Shown one piece after another: positions 25,346-43,907 of a DNA stretch of 50,655 nucleotides. The notes under the pieces were generated by a model that saw nothing but the letters and a program-made list of their open reading frames with translations, had not been told where the DNA came from and made no database searches. The position numbers and the translations under genes are program-made. The stretch covers positions 1 through 50,655 of the forward strand of contig NZ_LDQA01000035.1 of assembly GCF_001475935.1 (NCBI RefSeq), written 5' to 3'. This DNA comes from Aureimonas ureilytica (lineage in GTDB: Bacteria > Pseudomonadota > Alphaproteobacteria > Rhizobiales > Rhizobiaceae). The stretch's first letter is position 1; each line of letters starts with the position of its first letter.

Positions 25346-28273
25346 TCAGTGCGCCTCGTCCCAATTCGCCGCGGCCCTGGCATCGACCACGAGCGGCACG
25401 GCGAGGTCCACGACCGGCTCGGCCGCCTTTTCCATGACACGGCGCACGACCGGGATCGTCGCTTCCACTTCCTCGTCCGGCACTTCGAAGACGAGTTCGT
25501 CATGCACCTGCAGGAGCATCCGCGCTTGGAGACGTTCGGCCTTCAGCGCGTCCTCCATGCGCACCATGGCGCGTCGGATGATGTCCGCCGCCGAGCCCTG
25601 GATCGGCGCGTTGATGGCCGCGCGCTCGACGGCCGCGCGCACCTGCGGGTTGGAAGAGCGGATGTCGGGATAATGCGCGCGCCGGCCGAACAGCGTCTCG
25701 ACATAGCCGGCCTCCTTCGCGAAGGCCTTCACGCGGTCCATGTAATCGCGGATGCCGGGGAAGCGCTCGAAATAGCGCTTGATATAGGAGGCTGCCTCGC
25801 CCTGCGGGATCGAAAGCTGGGCCGCGAGGCCGAAGGCCGAGATGCCGTAGACGATGCCGAAATTGATGGCCTTGGCCCGCCGGCGCACCTCGGAGGGCAT
25901 GCCCTCCACCGGCACGCCGAACATCTCGGACGCGGTGGTCGCGTGAATGTCCTGCCCCTGCCGGAAGGCCTCCGTCAGCTGCGGAATGTCGGCCATATGG
26001 GCGAGCAGGCGAAGCTCGATTTGGCTGTAGTCGGCCGAGAGTAGCTTGTGGCCATCGGGCGCGACGAAGGCGGTGCGAATTTCGCGCCCTTCCTGCGTGC
26101 GGACCGGAATGTTCTGAAGGTTCGGCTCCGACGAGGACAGACGTCCCGTCGTGGTGGAGGCCATGGAATAGGACGTGTGGATGCGGTCCGCCTCGTCCAT
26201 GTAGGTCGGCAGCGCGTCCGTATAGGTGCCCTTCAGCTTGGTGATCTGGCGCCAGTCCACGATGCGGCGGGGCAGTTCGTGCCCTTGAGCGGCGAGGTCT
26301 TCCAGAAGGCGCGCGTCGGTCGCCCACTGGCCGGTCTTGGTTTTCTTGCCGCCGGGCAGGCCGAGCTTGCCGAAGAGCACCTCGCCCAGTTGCTTGGGGC
26401 TGCCGACATTGAAGGGCTCGCCGGCCAGAATGTGAATGTCGGCCTCCAACCCCGCCGCCTTCTGCGCGAAGCGACCCGACAGGCGCGACAGGATCTGCCG
26501 GTCGGCGCGGATGCCGCGCTCTTCCATGCGCGCCAGCACCGGCACCAGCGGGCGCTCCAGCCGCTCGTAGACCGAGCTCATCCCTTCGGCCACCAGGCGC
26601 GGCTTGAGCACGCGCCACAGGCGCAGCGTCACGTCGGCGTCCTCGGCGGCGTATTCCGTCACCTTGTCGATCGGGCAGGCGGCGATCGGTTTCGCGCCTT
26701 TTCCGGTGCCGCAGAGGTCCTTGTAGGAGATCGGCTTATGCCCGAGGAAGCGCTCGGACAATTCGTCCATGCCGTGCCCTTCGAGCGAGGACGAGGCGTC
26801 GAGCACGTAGGAAATCAGCATCGTATCGTCCATCGGGGCGATGTCGATGCCATGGCGCAGCATGACGAGATAATCGTATTTGGTGTTCTGGCCGATCTTC
26901 AGGATCGACGGGTCGGTGAGAACCGGCTTCAGGAGATCGAGCACGCGCCCGAGTGGCAGCTGCAAGCCGACGCTATCCGCCGCCTCGCCGCCTGACAGGA
27001 GATCGCCGCTGCCCTCCCCGATATGGCCGATCGGCACATAGGCCGCCTCCCCCGGCGCGACGGCAAAGGACAGACCCACGAGGTCGGCGCGCATGGCGTC
27101 GAGCGAGGTGGTTTCGGTGTCGAAGGCCAGAAGCCCCGTGTCATAAGCGCGGGCGATCCAGGCTTCGAGGCGAGCCTCGTCGCGGATCGTCTCGTAGCGC
27201 GAACGATCGACCGGGGTGGAGGCGGCCTCCGACAGGCGCTCGGCGGCGAGCCCGGCCGGCGTCAGCGGCATCGCGCCCTCCGCGCCCCCGCCCGCCAGCG
27301 CGGTGTCGCCGCCGGCGTCGAGATCGGGGCCGCGCGGCGCGTCGGAAATCGTCACCGGGGCGGGTGCGACCTCGCTGGCATCGGTGCCGAGCTTGGCCGC
27401 CACGCGCCGCGTCAGCGTGGTGAACTCCATCGCCTTCAGGTAGGCGACCAGCTTTTCGCCGTCCGGCTCGTGGATGAAGAGATCGTCCAGCGAGGTGTCG
27501 AGCGGCGTGTTCTGGTCGAGCGTCACGAGTTGCTTCGACAGGCGCGCCTGATCGGCATGGGCAAGAATGTTCTCGCGGCGCTTGGCCTGCTTGATTTCAC
27601 CCGCGCGCTCCAGCAGCGCTTCCAGCGTGCCGAAGGTTTCCAGAAGCTCGGCGGCGGTCTTGGGGCCGATGCCGGGCACGCCGGGCACATTGTCCGATGT
27701 GTCGCCGACCAGCGCCTGAAGGTCGATCATCTTCTCGGGGTAGACGCCAAACTTCTCGCGCACGTCCTCGGGGCCGAGGCGCTTGTCCTTCATCTGGTCG
27801 TAGAGGATGACGCTCGGGCCCACGAGTTGCATCAGATCCTTATCGGAGGAGACGATCGTGACGTCCCCGCCCGCCTCGACGGCAAGGCGCGTATAGGTCG
27901 CGATCAGATCGTCCGCCTCGAAGCCTTCCTTTTCGATGCAGGGCAGGTCGAAGGCGCGCACGGCCTCGCGGATCAGCGAGAATTGCGGGCGCAGATCCTC
28001 GGGCGGCGGCGGCCGATGCGCCTTGTAGCCATCGTAGAGCGCATTGCGGAACGTGGTCGAGGAATGGTCGAAGATCACGGCAAAATGGGTCGGGCAGACG
28101 CCGACCGAGGTGTCGCGCGATTCCTCCACCAGCTTCCATAGCATGTTGCAGAAGCCGGACACGGCGCCGACAGGCAGCCCGTCGGACTTGCGCGTCAGCG
28201 GCGGCAGCGCATGATAGGCTCGGAAGATGTAAGCCGAACCATCGACGAGGAAGAGGTGATCGCCCTTTTGCAT
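25346..28273 (-). CDS. polA: DNA polymerase I
   Basis: 975 residues, full three-domain enzyme used in Okazaki fragment maturation and repair. The N-terminal 5' nuclease shows FLVDGSAYIFRAYHALPP, EADDLIATY, IVSSDKDLMQL and GDTSDNVPGVPGIG. The 3'-5' exonuclease appears active, with LAFDTETTSLDAM and the later IGQNTKYDYLVM. The polymerase has ADYSQIELRLLAHM (motif A), RRRAKAINFGIVYG (finger helix with Lys and Tyr) and MLLQVHDELVFEVP (motif C). A low-complexity Ala/Gly-rich linker of about 50 residues separates the nuclease from the exonuclease. Start MQKGDHLFLVDG. Confidence 0.97.
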   Translation of the reverse strand: MQKGDHLFLVDGSAYIFRAYHALPPLTRKSDGLPVGAVSGFCNMLWKLVEESRDTSVGVCPTHFAVIFDHSSTTFRNALYDGYKAHRPPPPEDLRPQFSLIREAVRAFDLPCIEKEGFEADDLIATYTRLAVEAGGDVTIVSSDKDLMQLVGPSVILYDQMKDKRLGPEDVREKFGVYPEKMIDLQALVGDTSDNVPGVPGIGPKTAAELLETFGTLEALLERAGEIKQAKRRENILAHADQARLSKQLVTLDQNTPLDTSLDDLFIHEPDGEKLVAYLKAMEFTTLTRRVAAKLGTDASEVAPAPVTISDAPRGPDLDAGGDTALAGGGAEGAMPLTPAGLAAERLSEAASTPVDRSRYETIRDEARLEAWIARAYDTGLLAFDTETTSLDAMRADLVGLSFAVAPGEAAYVPIGHIGEGSGDLLSGGEAADSVGLQLPLGRVLDLLKPVLTDPSILKIGQNTKYDYLVMLRHGIDIAPMDDTMLISYVLDASSSLEGHGMDELSERFLGHKPISYKDLCGTGKGAKPIAACPIDKVTEYAAEDADVTLRLWRVLKPRLVAEGMSSVYERLERPLVPVLARMEERGIRADRQILSRLSGRFAQKAAGLEADIHILAGEPFNVGSPKQLGEVLFGKLGLPGGKKTKTGQWATDARLLEDLAAQGHELPRRIVDWRQITKLKGTYTDALPTYMDEADRIHTSYSMASTTTGRLSSSEPNLQNIPVRTQEGREIRTAFVAPDGHKLLSADYSQIELRLLAHMADIPQLTEAFRQGQDIHATTASEMFGVPVEGMPSEVRRRAKAINFGIVYGISAFGLAAQLSIPQGEAASYIKRYFERFPGIRDYMDRVKAFAKEAGYVETLFGRRAHYPDIRSSNPQVRAAVERAAINAPIQGSAADIIRRAMVRMEDALKAERLQARMLLQVHDELVFEVPDEEVEATIPVVRRVMEKAAEPVVDLAVPLVVDARAAANWDEAH

Positions 28274-28523
28274 GGGTCAGGTGGTATCGCGCGCCGCGCG
28301 GCCTGTCCATCGCGCCACTCGGGTGTCCGCCGTCACCGGGTCGGGAATCCCTCCAAACCCACATGCTTTGGGCTTGCGGCCAGGGATCATCGCCGAAGCT
28401 CCCTAGGAGAAAGCAAGGACGGCTTCGGGTCCAAAAGGAATTACAAATGTTTAATTGCAAGATCACGCTTTCGTGATCATACGGCCTTGAACGGAAACGG
28501 CCTAAGGCGCATTTTATCACCAA

Positions 28524-28683
28524 CGGCGCACGACAGCGCCGCTTTCGGCCCCAAAGCTCGTCCCCCGCTTTTGTGCCGAACTCAGAGCGGAATGTCCCCA
28601 TCCCCCCTCTCGGGACTCCGCTCTATCAGAAGGAGCCGTCGCGACAACCCCCCTCCAGTCCGCGACGGCTCTTCTTCTGTTTG
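28524..28683 (+). ncRNA. Candidate trans-acting sRNA with two C-rich anti-SD loops
   Basis: Three hairpins in 160 bases of a 476-bp gap without a convincing gene. Hairpin A is a 6-bp stem (28524-28529/28536-28541). Hairpin B has an 8-bp outer stem (28584-28591/28617-28624) plus 5 inner pairs (28594-28598/28612-28616), with loop CATCCCCCCTCTC. Hairpin C is an 11-bp stem (28633-28643/28661-28671), loop containing CCCCCCTCC, then TTCTTCTGTTT, like an intrinsic terminator. Exposed CCUCC in loops is how alpha-proteobacterial sRNAs such as the alpha-r14, AbcR and CcsR groups pair with ribosome sites. A weak promoter (TTGAAC 28487, TTTTAT 28512, spacing 19) could start it near hairpin A. Boundaries are uncertain; the rest of the gap is the polA leader and a small hairpin at 28461-28478. 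Confidence 0.55.
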
Positions 28684-28749
28684 ACGCCTTCCTAAATTAC
28701 GATCGCGCTTCGATCCGGCTATGAATGGCTGGCAGTTCGGGCTGGGCTC

Positions 28750-28938
28750 ATGACGGCTAAACAGACGCGCTTGCTTATCATAGCCCTTATGGGGTTCTGC
28801 TTCATCGCCACACTCTCCGGCGCGATCTGGGATGCGATGGCGGGTGATTGGGCTTGGCGTCATTGGGTCACCCCCACGCTTTTCTTCATGAACCTCCTCC
28901 TGAACGTGGCGATCCTGCTTCGAAAGCCAGCGCGGTAG
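28750..28938 (+). CDS. Small two-helix membrane protein, unknown
   Basis: 62 residues with two predicted membrane helices (LLIIALMGFCFIATLSGAIW and WVTPTLFFMNLLLNVAILL) and a short positively charged C-terminus (RKPAR). No clear Shine-Dalgarno sequence precedes the ATG. I do not recognise a family. It lies 66 bases after the candidate sRNA terminator and 97 bases before the dipeptidase gene. Its hydrophobic pattern supports a real gene, but the evidence is modest. Confidence 0.5.
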   Translation: MTAKQTRLLIIALMGFCFIATLSGAIWDAMAGDWAWRHWVTPTLFFMNLLLNVAILLRKPAR

Positions 28939-39072: not shown

Positions 39073-39100
39073 CTTGCGCCCCTCAAGCCCCATTCATATA
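39073..39100 (+). promoter_or_regulatory. Putative heat-shock (RpoH) promoter of dnaK
   Basis: CTTG (39073-39076) followed after 18 bases by CATATA (39095-39100) resembles the alphaproteobacterial sigma-32 pattern CTTG-N17/18-CYTAT. It lies about 127 bases upstream of dnaK. No CIRCE inverted repeat is seen. The 352-bp gap to the divergent 24-codon gene otherwise holds only the GGAAC-type promoter. Confidence 0.55.
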
Positions 39101-39226
39101 TAGCCTCCAGCCTCGCCGGGAGGGATCATCCCCGCCCCTCGGCGACACGACGAATCCGCTAGGTGCCGCCTTTCGGAATGCCTCGAACGGGGGTCCGGGC
39201 TGCACGCTCAACAAGGAGAAAAGAAT

Positions 39227-41155
<1,929 letters not shown>

Positions 41156-41175
41156 TCTCCTTCTATCACTACCAG

Positions 41176-41212
41176 CAGCCCCGGTTCGAAAGAGCCGGGG
41201 CTGTTTTCGTTT
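41176..41212 (+). terminator. Intrinsic terminator of dnaK
   Basis: A 9-bp GC-rich stem (41176-41184 with 41195-41203), 10-base loop and a TTTTCGTTT tail, 20 bp after the dnaK stop. Confidence 0.88.
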
Positions 41213-41401
41213 GGAGCGGATGCTCGGCCTCCCATAGGCGGCACCGCCCGACCTTCACCACCTGAAGGTCAAACCAATATCTCCAAGCAAGGCTTAACGT
41301 TAACCCGAGGTAAGCTTCCCACTCTGACTGCCGGGTGAGCCCTTTCCGTCTATAATGGCCTTCAGCACCTGAGATGGACTGGGCCCTGAGAGGCGAAGCC
41401 G

Positions 41402-42490
41402 ATGCATTTCCGCATTTTCGATTGCTGGCGTTTTGCCGCCGCGCTTCTCGTGATGACCTATCACTTCCTGTTCTTCGCGCCGGGCCAAGCCGCTTATACG
41501 GAAACCGATCTTCTGTTCCGGCTCCTGCCGCTGCTCGACATGTTCTTCATGATCTCGGGCTTCGTGATCATGAGCCGCTATGGCGACCGCATCGACACGC
41601 TGCCGGCCTATGCGACGTTCCTGCGTCGGCGCATCGCTCGGCTTTACCCCTTGCATCTTCTGACGCTCGCCTTCTTCGTCGGCGTGGCGCTGATCGGCCG
41701 CGCCGGCTTCGTGCATCTTCAACTGCCTGAGCGTTGGGATCTCCACGCGGTGCCGCTGCATCTTCTGGCGATCCATGCCTGGGGCACGACGAACGCGCTG
41801 TCCTTCAACTACCCGTCCTGGTCGGTCAGCGCGGAAATCTTCTGCTATCTCCTGTTTCCGCTGGTGCCCTTCGTGGTGCGCAGGGCCGGCGCGCTCGGCC
41901 TGACGCTCACGCTCGCGGCCTATGTCGTGGGTCTGGAGATCGCCAGCCGCGCGGGCTTTTTCCCGAGCGGCCATTGGACCACAGCCGACACCTATGGCGC
42001 TTACCGCGCGCTCGCCGATTTCATGGCCGGCGGCCTTGCCTCGCTTCTCGTCACCCGGCGCGCGCTGAACGTGACCTCGCATGCGCCAGGCCTCGTCAGC
42101 CTCGGACTAGCCGTCGCCTGCATGGTGTGGCAGATCGACGTCCACGCCACGCTTCTCTTTCTGTTCGGCGCGATCCTCCTGATCGGCCTGTCGGAAAGCG
42201 CGCGGCCCGACTCCACCCGCGCTCTGGCGCCAGCGATGAAGCTCACCTGCGTTTCCTTCGGCATCTATCTCTGGCATCCCGTCATGGAGACGCTGTTCCT
42301 GTCGATCCTTTGGAAGCGCGTCATCGAGCCGACGGGCTGGATCGGCTTCCACGCCTATCTGGTGCTGCCGATCCTGGCCTCGATCCTCGTCGCGCTGCTT
42401 TGGCACTATACGCTGGACGGCCGGATCGCCGCGCTTCTGGCGGGCACGCACCGCCGCACCGCCCCTGCCGCGCGCCTCGCTAACGCCTGA
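41402..42490 (+). CDS. Acyltransferase 3 (OafA/YrhL-like) membrane protein
   Basis: 362 residues with about ten membrane helices. It starts with the family signature [21 protein letters not shown], where the conserved His and Arg of the acyl-transfer site lie, and then [46 protein letters not shown]. Such proteins add acetyl or other acyl groups to cell-surface sugars such as O-antigen, exopolysaccharide or peptidoglycan. The acceptor is unknown here. It sits between dnaK and dnaJ with its own leader (190 bp, includes TTAACGTTAA 41294-41303). This placement is unusual. Confidence 0.92.
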
Positions 42491-42529
42491 CACATCGCGG
42501 TCAGCGCCTGGGTTTATTCGATTTTTCGT

Positions 42530-42558
42530 GCCACGGCTTCCATTCCGAGAGCCGTGGC
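42530..42558. repeat. Inverted repeat between the acyltransferase and dnaJ genes
   Basis: A 9-bp stem (42530-42538 with 42550-42558) with an 11-base loop lies 40 bp after the acyltransferase stop and 200 bp before dnaJ. No T run follows, so it may be a transcript-end or leader structure instead of a terminator. The rest of the 268-bp gap has nothing recognisable. Confidence 0.5.
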
Positions 42559-42758
42559 GTAAACATGACAGGTGGCTACGATACGGCCATGCGGCGCGCG
42601 CGGCCGTCTTTCTCGCGAGCCTTGCCTATGGTAACGCGCCGGAACAGCGCTTACATGCCAGAACGCGCCTTTGCGGCGCGCGCCGGGATCGGCTTGCCTC
42701 GTCTTTGCGACAGGGCGCGGCCATCCCGCATTCCACTCGGTGCGAGAACGGTGAAGCA

Positions 42759-43907
42759 GTGTCCGTGAAGGTCGATTACTACGAAACGCTCGGCGTCGCG
42801 AAAACCTGTGACGACAAGGTTCTGAAGGCGGCGTTCCGCAAGCTCGCCATGCAATATCATCCGGACAAGAACCCTGGCGACGCCGTCGCCGAGGCGAAGT
42901 TCAAGGAGATCGGCGAGGCTTACGAGGTTCTGAAGGACCCGCAGAAGCGCTCGGCCTATGATCGCTACGGACATGCCGCCTTCCAGAACGGCGGCGGCGG
43001 CGGTGGGTTCCGCGGCGACTTCTCCTCTTCCATGGCCGATATCTTCGACGACATCTTCGGCGAGATGATGGGCGGGCGTGGCCAGACCCGGCGTCAGGGC
43101 GGCAATTCGGGCGGGCGCGAGCGCGGCTCGGACCTGCGCTACAACATGGAAATTTCGCTGGAAGAGGCCTATCTCGGCAAGACCGCCGAGATCAGCGTGC
43201 CCACCACGATCCAGTGCGACGTGTGCAACGGTTCGGGCGCCAAGGCCGGAACCGCGCCGCGCACCTGCCCCACCTGCGGCGGCATCGGCCGCGTGCGCGC
43301 CGCGCAAGGCTTCTTCTCCATCGAGCGCACCTGCCCGACCTGCCAGGGGCGCGGCGAGATCATCGCGGACCCCTGCGGCAAGTGCGGCGGCGAAGGCCGT
43401 CTGCCCGAAGAGCGGAATCTCTCGGTCTCGATCCCGGCCGGCATCGAGGACGGCACCCGCATTCGCCTCGCTGGCGAAGGCGAAGCGGGTCTGCGCGGCG
43501 GGCCGGCGGGCGATCTCTACATCTTCTTGTCGGTGAAGCCGCACGAATTCTTCCAGCGCGACGGGGCGGACCTCTTCTGCAAGGTGCCGATTTCCATGAC
43601 CACCGCCGCGCTCGGCGGCTCCTTCGAGGTCACGACGCTCGACGGGGCCAAGACGCGGGTCAAGGTTCCGGAAGGCACGCAGTTCGGCAAGCAGTTCCGC
43701 GTCAAGGGCAAGGGCATGCCGGTTCTGCGCTCGGCGCAGATGGGCGATCTCTTCATCCAGATTTCCATCGAGACGCCGCAAAGCCTTTCGCGTCGCCAGC
43801 GTGAACTGCTACAGGAGTTCGAAGAAATCTCCTCGTCCGAGAATTCGCCGCAATCCACCGGCTTTTTCTCGCGCATGAAGGAATTCTTCGAGGGCCTCAG
43901 CGACTGA
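42759..43907 (+). CDS. dnaJ: Chaperone DnaJ (Hsp40)
   Basis: 382 residues from GTG 42759; GTG 42765 is nearly equivalent, and longer in-frame starts look unlike DnaJ. The J domain has HPD at 34-36 ([10 protein letters not shown]), followed by a Gly/Phe-rich stretch. The zinc domain has four CxxCxGxG repeats: [32 protein letters not shown]. The substrate-binding C-terminal barrels and a [12 protein letters not shown] end complete it. It stimulates DnaK ATPase and delivers substrates. The start codon is weak and the ribosome site poor, so yield is probably kept below DnaK. Confidence 0.95.

Follow-up and report, generated by a model that had tools for sequence, protein, structure and literature searches.

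An αr7 Small RNA Gene with C-Rich Hairpin Loops and a Putative RpoH Promoter Beside polA in Aureimonas ureilytica

The polA-Proximal Locus

The window, that is, the whole stretch of 50,655 nucleotides of Aureimonas ureilytica DNA that was analysed (contig NZ_LDQA01000035.1), contains a gap of 476 bp between the divergent polA gene and the next plus-strand open reading frame (28273 to 28750), with four hairpins inside (Table 1). The RNA gene described here has its 5' end 248 nt away from the start codon of polA. An earlier note on this DNA had reported two stable hairpins with C-rich loops in tandem, and both are present (28584-28679) with the loop letters as claimed; the count itself was too low, a further C-rich hairpin (SL1) and the 5' hairpin (SL0) having been overlooked.

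Table 1. Features at and around the αr7 locus of the window.
Feature	Position	Strand	Evidence or remark
polA	25346-28273	-	Divergent neighbour; Pfam
Upstream element TTAC-N6-TTAA	28441-28454		Conserved; inverted repeat TTAC-N6-GTAA in many relatives
Palindrome TCAC-N6-GTGA (TCACGCTTTCGTGA)	28463-28476		Conserved; at position -58 in 21/21 Aureimonas
RpoH-like promoter: CTTGAA (28486-28491), N17, GCATTT (28509-28514)	28486-28514	+	TTGAAC-N16-GCATTT fixed in 21/21 Aureimonas
αr7 sRNA gene	28521-28680	+	RF02342 match and own covariance model R1; predicted transcript ~155-160 nt
5' hairpin SL0	28524-28541	+	MFE fold; helix 1, 87.2% of cells paired, two-sided changes in 4/6 pairs
Hairpin SL1, loop UCGUCCCCC (28558-28566)	28544-28580	+	MFE fold; helices 2-3, 99.5 and 99.6% of cells paired
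Hairpin SL2, loop CAUCCCCCCUCUC (28599-28611)	28584-28624	+	MFE fold; helices 4-6
Terminator-like hairpin SL3, loop AACCCCCCUCCA (28646-28657)	28627-28679	+	MFE fold; helix 7
62-aa ORF	28750-28938	+	Downstream of the RNA; M20 peptidase next

Folding predicts -74.6 kcal/mol for 28524-28683, where shuffled sequences average -44.24 (z -8.03) and none of 200 was equally stable. The resulting deficit of 30.4 kcal/mol is larger than in any of the 316 plus-strand tiles of the window (160 nt each, 12 shuffles per tile; largest deficit 21.2), a rank that is generous because the candidate frame was picked by eye while the tiles were not, the overlapping out-of-frame tiles being unremarkable. The tile with the top deficit among the 316 belongs to a terminator-like hairpin on the 3' side of dnaK (41170-41215). 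The dnaK (HSP70) gene and a DnaJ gene occupy 39227-43907, with an acyltransferase-like gene between them, and a CTTGCG-N16-CATATAT-like promoter was seen by eye upstream of dnaK (39073-39101).

SL3 had also been taken for an intrinsic terminator, a claim that is only fair: its 11-bp GC stem is there, but the UUCUUCUGUUU that follows is an interrupted U tract, and a simple terminator scan called none at SL3 of the window copy. Several relatives have cleaner U runs 3' of SL3.

Identity of the RNA

At gathering scores, an Rfam scan of the whole window gave no match. The sub-threshold scan that was applied afterwards matched RF02342 (ar7, a name presumably taken from Smr7C) to 28521-28674 across the whole model (1-145 of 145) with 55.1 bits; the E-value is 5.4e-10 when 487 nt are searched and 1.3e-9 for the whole genome (about 2e-10 to 1e-9 across searches). 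The gathering score being 60, the window copy falls about 5 bits short and so lies outside the family by the formal criterion; under the strict Rfam rule it is unlisted, and homology is argued here from the E-value, from orthology to a same-genus locus (L017), from structure and from synteny. L017 scores 66.8 bits, above the gathering score. RF02342 was matched by every one of 20 Aureimonas loci, of which one is that of the window and 19 come from the 20 other genomes; L017 is over the cut-off and the remaining 19 score 46.0-59.6 bits. The genome scan with RF02342 found one copy in the window's genome. A covariance model built for this analysis, R1, matches 28521-28676 with 118.7 bits, the window copy being among the 48 sequences from which R1 was built.

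The RNA is thus almost certainly the Aureimonas orthologue of αr7, known as SmelC023, SmrC7 or sra03 in Sinorhizobium meliloti and as ReC06 in Rhizobium etli, the last being given as a SmelC023 relative in PMC3927594. It is an ordinary member of a known family and no new family is proposed. The earlier note had recognised no family in it and was mistaken on this point, as the homology extends over the full RF02342 model. Its proposal of an sRNA gene with loops resembling anti-Shine-Dalgarno (anti-SD) sequences finds, on the other hand, strong support in the homology, the covariation and the conservation of the promoter.

The groups named there for comparison fared poorly. The αr15/AbcR model (RF02345) gave 15.2 bits against a cut-off of 40, and no CcsR family appeared among the sub-threshold Rfam matches to the window RNA. 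Membership of the αr14 (NfeR1) family would account for a match to RF02344 of 29.1 bits (E 0.0013) and for a similar multi-loop anti-SD design, yet that score misses the cut-off of 58.8 by a wide margin and trails the ar7 score by 26 bits, the window loops UCGUCCCCC, CAUCCCCCCUCUC and AACCCCCCUCCA are not CCUCCUCCC, and the synteny with polA is that of SmelC023, which leaves this assignment extremely improbable. Other identities were rejected as well: αr14, αr15, 6C and Scr3202 all scored well under their cut-offs, EcpR1 sits downstream of divK-pleD according to PMC4414408, and a coding function is at odds with RNA lengths that occupy all three residues modulo 3 in Aureimonas and with stems that covary. 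Among the matches listed in the open-licence literature, none was titled after the αr7 RNA and none was, by title, an Aureimonas sRNA study.

Conservation of Structure and Loops

Comparative support for the fold comes from two alignments. In a structure-free MAFFT alignment of 48 sequences, two-sided changes were seen in 18 of 19 predicted pairs, SL2 being unresolved there. In the R1-fitted alignment of 84 loci, which leans toward its own model (48 of the 84 sequences built R1), compensatory two-sided changes affect 33 of 36 pairs, a positive answer to the check for compensatory base changes that the earlier note had suggested. These 84 loci (82 distinct) have 94.1% of cells paired against 78.4 when shuffled, and a covariation score of 0.533 against 0.237 when shuffled and 0.062-0.166 with partners slid. 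In SL2, 93.5, 86.7 and 96.3% of cells are paired in helices 4 to 6, and in SL3 97.1% in helix 7, with two-sided changes in 11/11 pairs of each hairpin. The locus set is a non-random one, composed of 21 loci from the genus, the 33 best-scoring matches of the order and family and 30 loci obtained from 40 genomes selected by hand, the majority for their weaker scores; a second copy of the window's own locus (L027) was removed.

When the sequences were folded individually and a lenient list of C-rich motifs was accepted, C-runs were found in the loop of SL1 in 83/84 loci, of SL2 in 84/84 and of SL3 in 81/84, with all three present in 80/84 and in 21/21 Aureimonas. By column the loops vary less than the stems, mean identity being 0.89, 0.87 and 0.81 for loops 1 to 3, against 0.74 for paired columns. 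SL2 has 51 distinct 5' arms across the 84 loci, lineages differing strongly, and 37 distinct loop strings, which differ mostly in C-run length and at their ends. The prospect raised in the earlier note that loops and stems might lack conservation in close relatives was checked, and both are conserved in 21/21 Aureimonas. In summary, the four-hairpin structure, the C-rich loops, the place beside polA and the RpoH-like promoter are all conserved.

Distribution and Genomic Place

The locus is present in all 21 Aureimonas genomes examined (by DNA similarity in 20/20 others). Within the family to which the window belongs, RF02342 matches 251 of 297 genomes at E<=0.001, representing 94 of 109 genera, and 208 of 297 exceed its cut-off. 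R1, tried on 20 of the 46 family genomes without an Rfam match, found four at E<=0.01, one clear (G303, 8e-8) and three weak. In order-wide samples, for which the filters were stricter and weak matches are missed, RF02342 matched 6/199 genomes and R1 9/249, every match falling within the window's own family; among control genomes, 2/14 gave weak RF02342 matches at E<=0.1, none above the cut-off. Plasmids gave no match. The observed restriction to the window's family agrees with the published spread over Rhizobiaceae, Brucellaceae and Phyllobacteriaceae given in PMC3927594; the available portion of PMC5596092 reports Smr7C as absent from Mesorhizobium huakuii 7653R. Two RF02342 matches at E<=0.001 occur in each of four genomes of genus g181 (G299, with 52.9 and 46.8 bits, G374, G433 and G486) and in one Aureimonas genome (G007), a possible duplication.

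Divergent polA lies 5' of the RNA in 74 of the 84 loci at a median distance of 185 nt, the other ten having no polA in the stretch fetched. The same neighbourhood is published for SmelC023 members, with one exception in Agrobacterium tumefaciens (PMC3927594). In three loci of genus g114 (L045, L048 and L054) αr7 is present but the fetched stretch contains no polA, which is reminiscent of that exception in A. tumefaciens C58.

Promoter and Upstream Elements

The CTTGAA hexamer begins 35 nt ahead of the 5' end of the RF02342 model, and TTGAAC-N16-GCATTT at -34 is fixed in 21/21 Aureimonas, seven of which carry ATTGAAC instead of CTTGAAC. Beyond the genus, TTGA is found at -40 to -28 in 77/84 loci, against 82/3360 random windows, and CTTGA at the promoter place in 67/78. 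When 78 loci (omitting six of those covered by the 84-locus count) were scored against [CT]TTGA...CCANAT, the -10 element agreed at five of five positions in 17, at four in 30 and at three in 21, ten having no such -35; all scored Aureimonas fall in the three-of-five group. CTTGAA-N18-CATNT, a pattern devised after the site was seen, has one match in the window where 0.04 would be expected. With respect to the published RpoH1 consensus, CTTGAA-N15-16-CCTATAT (PMC4843759), the window promoter has an exact -35 and a -10 that fits at 4/7 positions by eye (3/5 against CCANAT).

Further evidence comes from heat-shock genes of the genus. In five Aureimonas genomes, a single HSP20 paralogue apiece (5/10 HSP20 loci) is preceded by CTTGAA-N17-CCATST, with the same N17 spacing as the sRNA promoter, whose -10 (3/5) would nevertheless fail the 4/5 agreement demanded of those matches. 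No RpoH-like motif was found in the five groES upstream regions searched. In the literature, SmelC023 is listed with both RpoD and RpoH1/2 (PMC7143759) and ReC06 of R. etli is heat-shock-induced (PMC4167512).

It could be argued that transcription starts from an ordinary RpoD promoter and that heat has no role. TTGAAC resembles a σ70 -35 box, the Aureimonas -10 is a poor fit to the RpoH motif, the listing of SmelC023 includes RpoD, the heat response of ReC06 was seen in a different genus, and the available text of PMC2780559 predicts σ70 promoters for the smr genes with no sites for other sigma factors. This last prediction and the failure of the Aureimonas -10 to pass the HSP20 filter lower the confidence in the full mechanism proposed below, the RpoD and sponge readings gaining accordingly. 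Set against an RpoD promoter are the shared N17 spacing of CTTGAA-N17-GCATTT and the HSP20 motif, and the occurrence of CTTGA in 67/78 loci with a full CCANAT in 17/78, so that this explanation is considered rather unlikely, if still of appreciable weight. An RpoH promoter is the likelier of the two.

Two conserved elements of roughly the form TNAC-N6-GTNA, about 22 bp apart, lie between the sRNA and polA. TTAC-N6-[GT]TAA occurs within 130 nt upstream in 70/84 αr7 loci, against 109/3360 random windows from the same loci, and the perfect TTAC-N6-GTAA in 48/84 against 81/3360. Both elements are possibly binding sites of a putative regulator.

Proposed Mode of Action

In the model proposed here, RpoH would help to transcribe the αr7 RNA upon heat or related stress, giving a transcript of ~155-160 nt with its 3' end at SL3. 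The C-rich loops would then base-pair with several mRNAs around the Shine-Dalgarno sequence and start codon, which would keep ribosomes from entering and promote decay. The S. meliloti RNA, SmrC7, was undetected in the Hfq co-immunoprecipitate described in the available portion of PMC2848018, whose authors consider absence of binding or very low affinity, and on that precedent the Aureimonas RNA may act without stable Hfq binding. This mechanism as a whole, an RpoH-driven and trans-acting anti-SD αr7 sRNA, is regarded as reasonably probable.

The reverse complement of loop 2, CAUCCCCCCUCUC, is GAGAGGGGGGAUG, that is, the loop is an exact antisense of a Shine-Dalgarno sequence, spacer and AUG. 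An AU stands beside the C-run in 64/84 loci and CAU in 35/84, for which reason anti-AUG pairing is not universal. Loop 3 contains CCUCC, the anti-SD core. Trans-action is plausible. The αr14 RNA NfeR1, which has a like design, represses targets through its anti-SD loops by mRNA pairing (PMC7143759). In S. meliloti, primary and processed αr7 transcripts were mapped as separate RNAs of ~150 nt, with a level about 13-fold up in nodules (PMC2780559).

The search for near-perfect antisense sites in 21 Aureimonas genomes (GAGAGGGGGGATG, at most one mismatch) found 95, where the reversed pattern gave 16, and 15 of the 95 are by coordinates the sRNA gene itself. Thirty loci were fetched, eight of them again the sRNA gene, and the sites in the remainder were scattered: in nine of the 22 non-sRNA loci an ORF of 60 aa or more begins at the site or shortly behind it, and in five one of 200 aa or more. 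The one repeated candidate, an alpha/beta hydrolase gene in two species (L148 and L155), encodes a protein found in 16/21 genomes but not in that of the window. No conserved mRNA target was obtained from this search. PMC2245857 predicts zapA as a target of sra03; of the zapA loci of 21 Aureimonas genomes, all but one (L179) gave a best duplex with loop 2 that was weaker than eight shuffles on average, the window's loop letters having been used for all genomes and the background run for loop 2 only. In Aureimonas, zapA is not supported as an αr7 target.

Two other readings of the RNA concern its action. The C-rich loops could mainly bind a protein or a ribosomal component, the RNA serving as a sponge with no mRNA pairing, which would suit the three C-rich loops, alike among themselves while their stems vary, the missing Hfq signal of SmrC7 in the text available from PMC2848018 and the empty search for a conserved target. 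The example of αr14/NfeR1, which has three similar loops and acts through mRNA pairing (PMC7143759), speaks against it and makes it quite unlikely. The CCUCC of loop 3, the anti-SD core, points the same way. It might also be proposed that there is no free sRNA and that the hairpins act in cis, as a leader or attenuator, on the 62-aa ORF and M20 peptidase gene, SL3 being terminator-like and the next genes lying on the same strand, as does the M20 match downstream in 66/84 loci. Yet the RNA persists while its downstream neighbour varies, being a tRNA in three Aureimonas loci (L018-L020) and a MarR-type gene in Rhizobiaceae (PMC3927594). The 62-aa ORF, sought by tblastn in the first 55 loci with the window's own copies set aside, has a relative solely in L003 (51% identity) and appears to be lineage-specific or spurious. 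Together with the separate transcripts of S. meliloti (PMC2780559), this renders a leader very improbable.

A bolder version of the trans-acting model can be envisaged, with αr7 as a family-wide heat-shock brake on translation in which a generic start-site antisense loop 2 and two anti-SD-like loops would act broadly and the TNAC-N6-GTNA elements would provide a second input; it is speculative and unlikely to hold in full.

The present analysis extends αr7 to Aureimonas, where the Rfam cut-off misses the window copy and 18 of the 19 other loci scanned, and supplies an alignment across the family in which covariation is strong. What it usefully adds to the known family are the observations on the promoter and on loop 2: with a conserved RpoH-like promoter and a loop antisense to a start site, an RNA of unknown function becomes a candidate heat-shock regulator that can be tested.

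Comparison with Known Systems

The window RNA shares with αr7 of S. meliloti and R. etli (SmelC023/SmrC7/sra03 and ReC06) a match to the full model, four hairpins and C-rich loops, a similar length, a single copy in the genome placed divergently from polA, and an RpoH-like promoter. Variable stems, conserved loops and a terminator-like 3' hairpin are also common to them, the U tract being weak in the window copy. It differs in scoring 5 bits below the gathering score, in the six Cs of its loop 2 and in an SL2 stem of Aureimonas type (GAGCGGA..GUCCC/GGGAC.UCCGCUC), where many others have GGACAAAGGCC or GCGGCAGCC.

The αr14 RNA (RF02344, NfeR1) likewise has several hairpins, anti-SD loops and variable stems. 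The window RNA, at 29.1 bits against 58.8, lacks the CCUCCUCCC loops and occupies another genomic place; that motif is given for each hairpin loop of SmelA075 in PMC3927594. With αr15/AbcR (RF02345) the likeness is one of working principle, through CU-rich anti-SD motifs, at a score of 15.2 bits against 40, and the two RNAs part over Hfq, which AbcR binds (PMC7143759) and with which SmrC7 was undetected in the available portion of PMC2848018. The 6C RNA (RF01066) exposes C runs on two hairpins, a resemblance alone, since the window RNA reaches 20.4 bits against its cut-off of 47.
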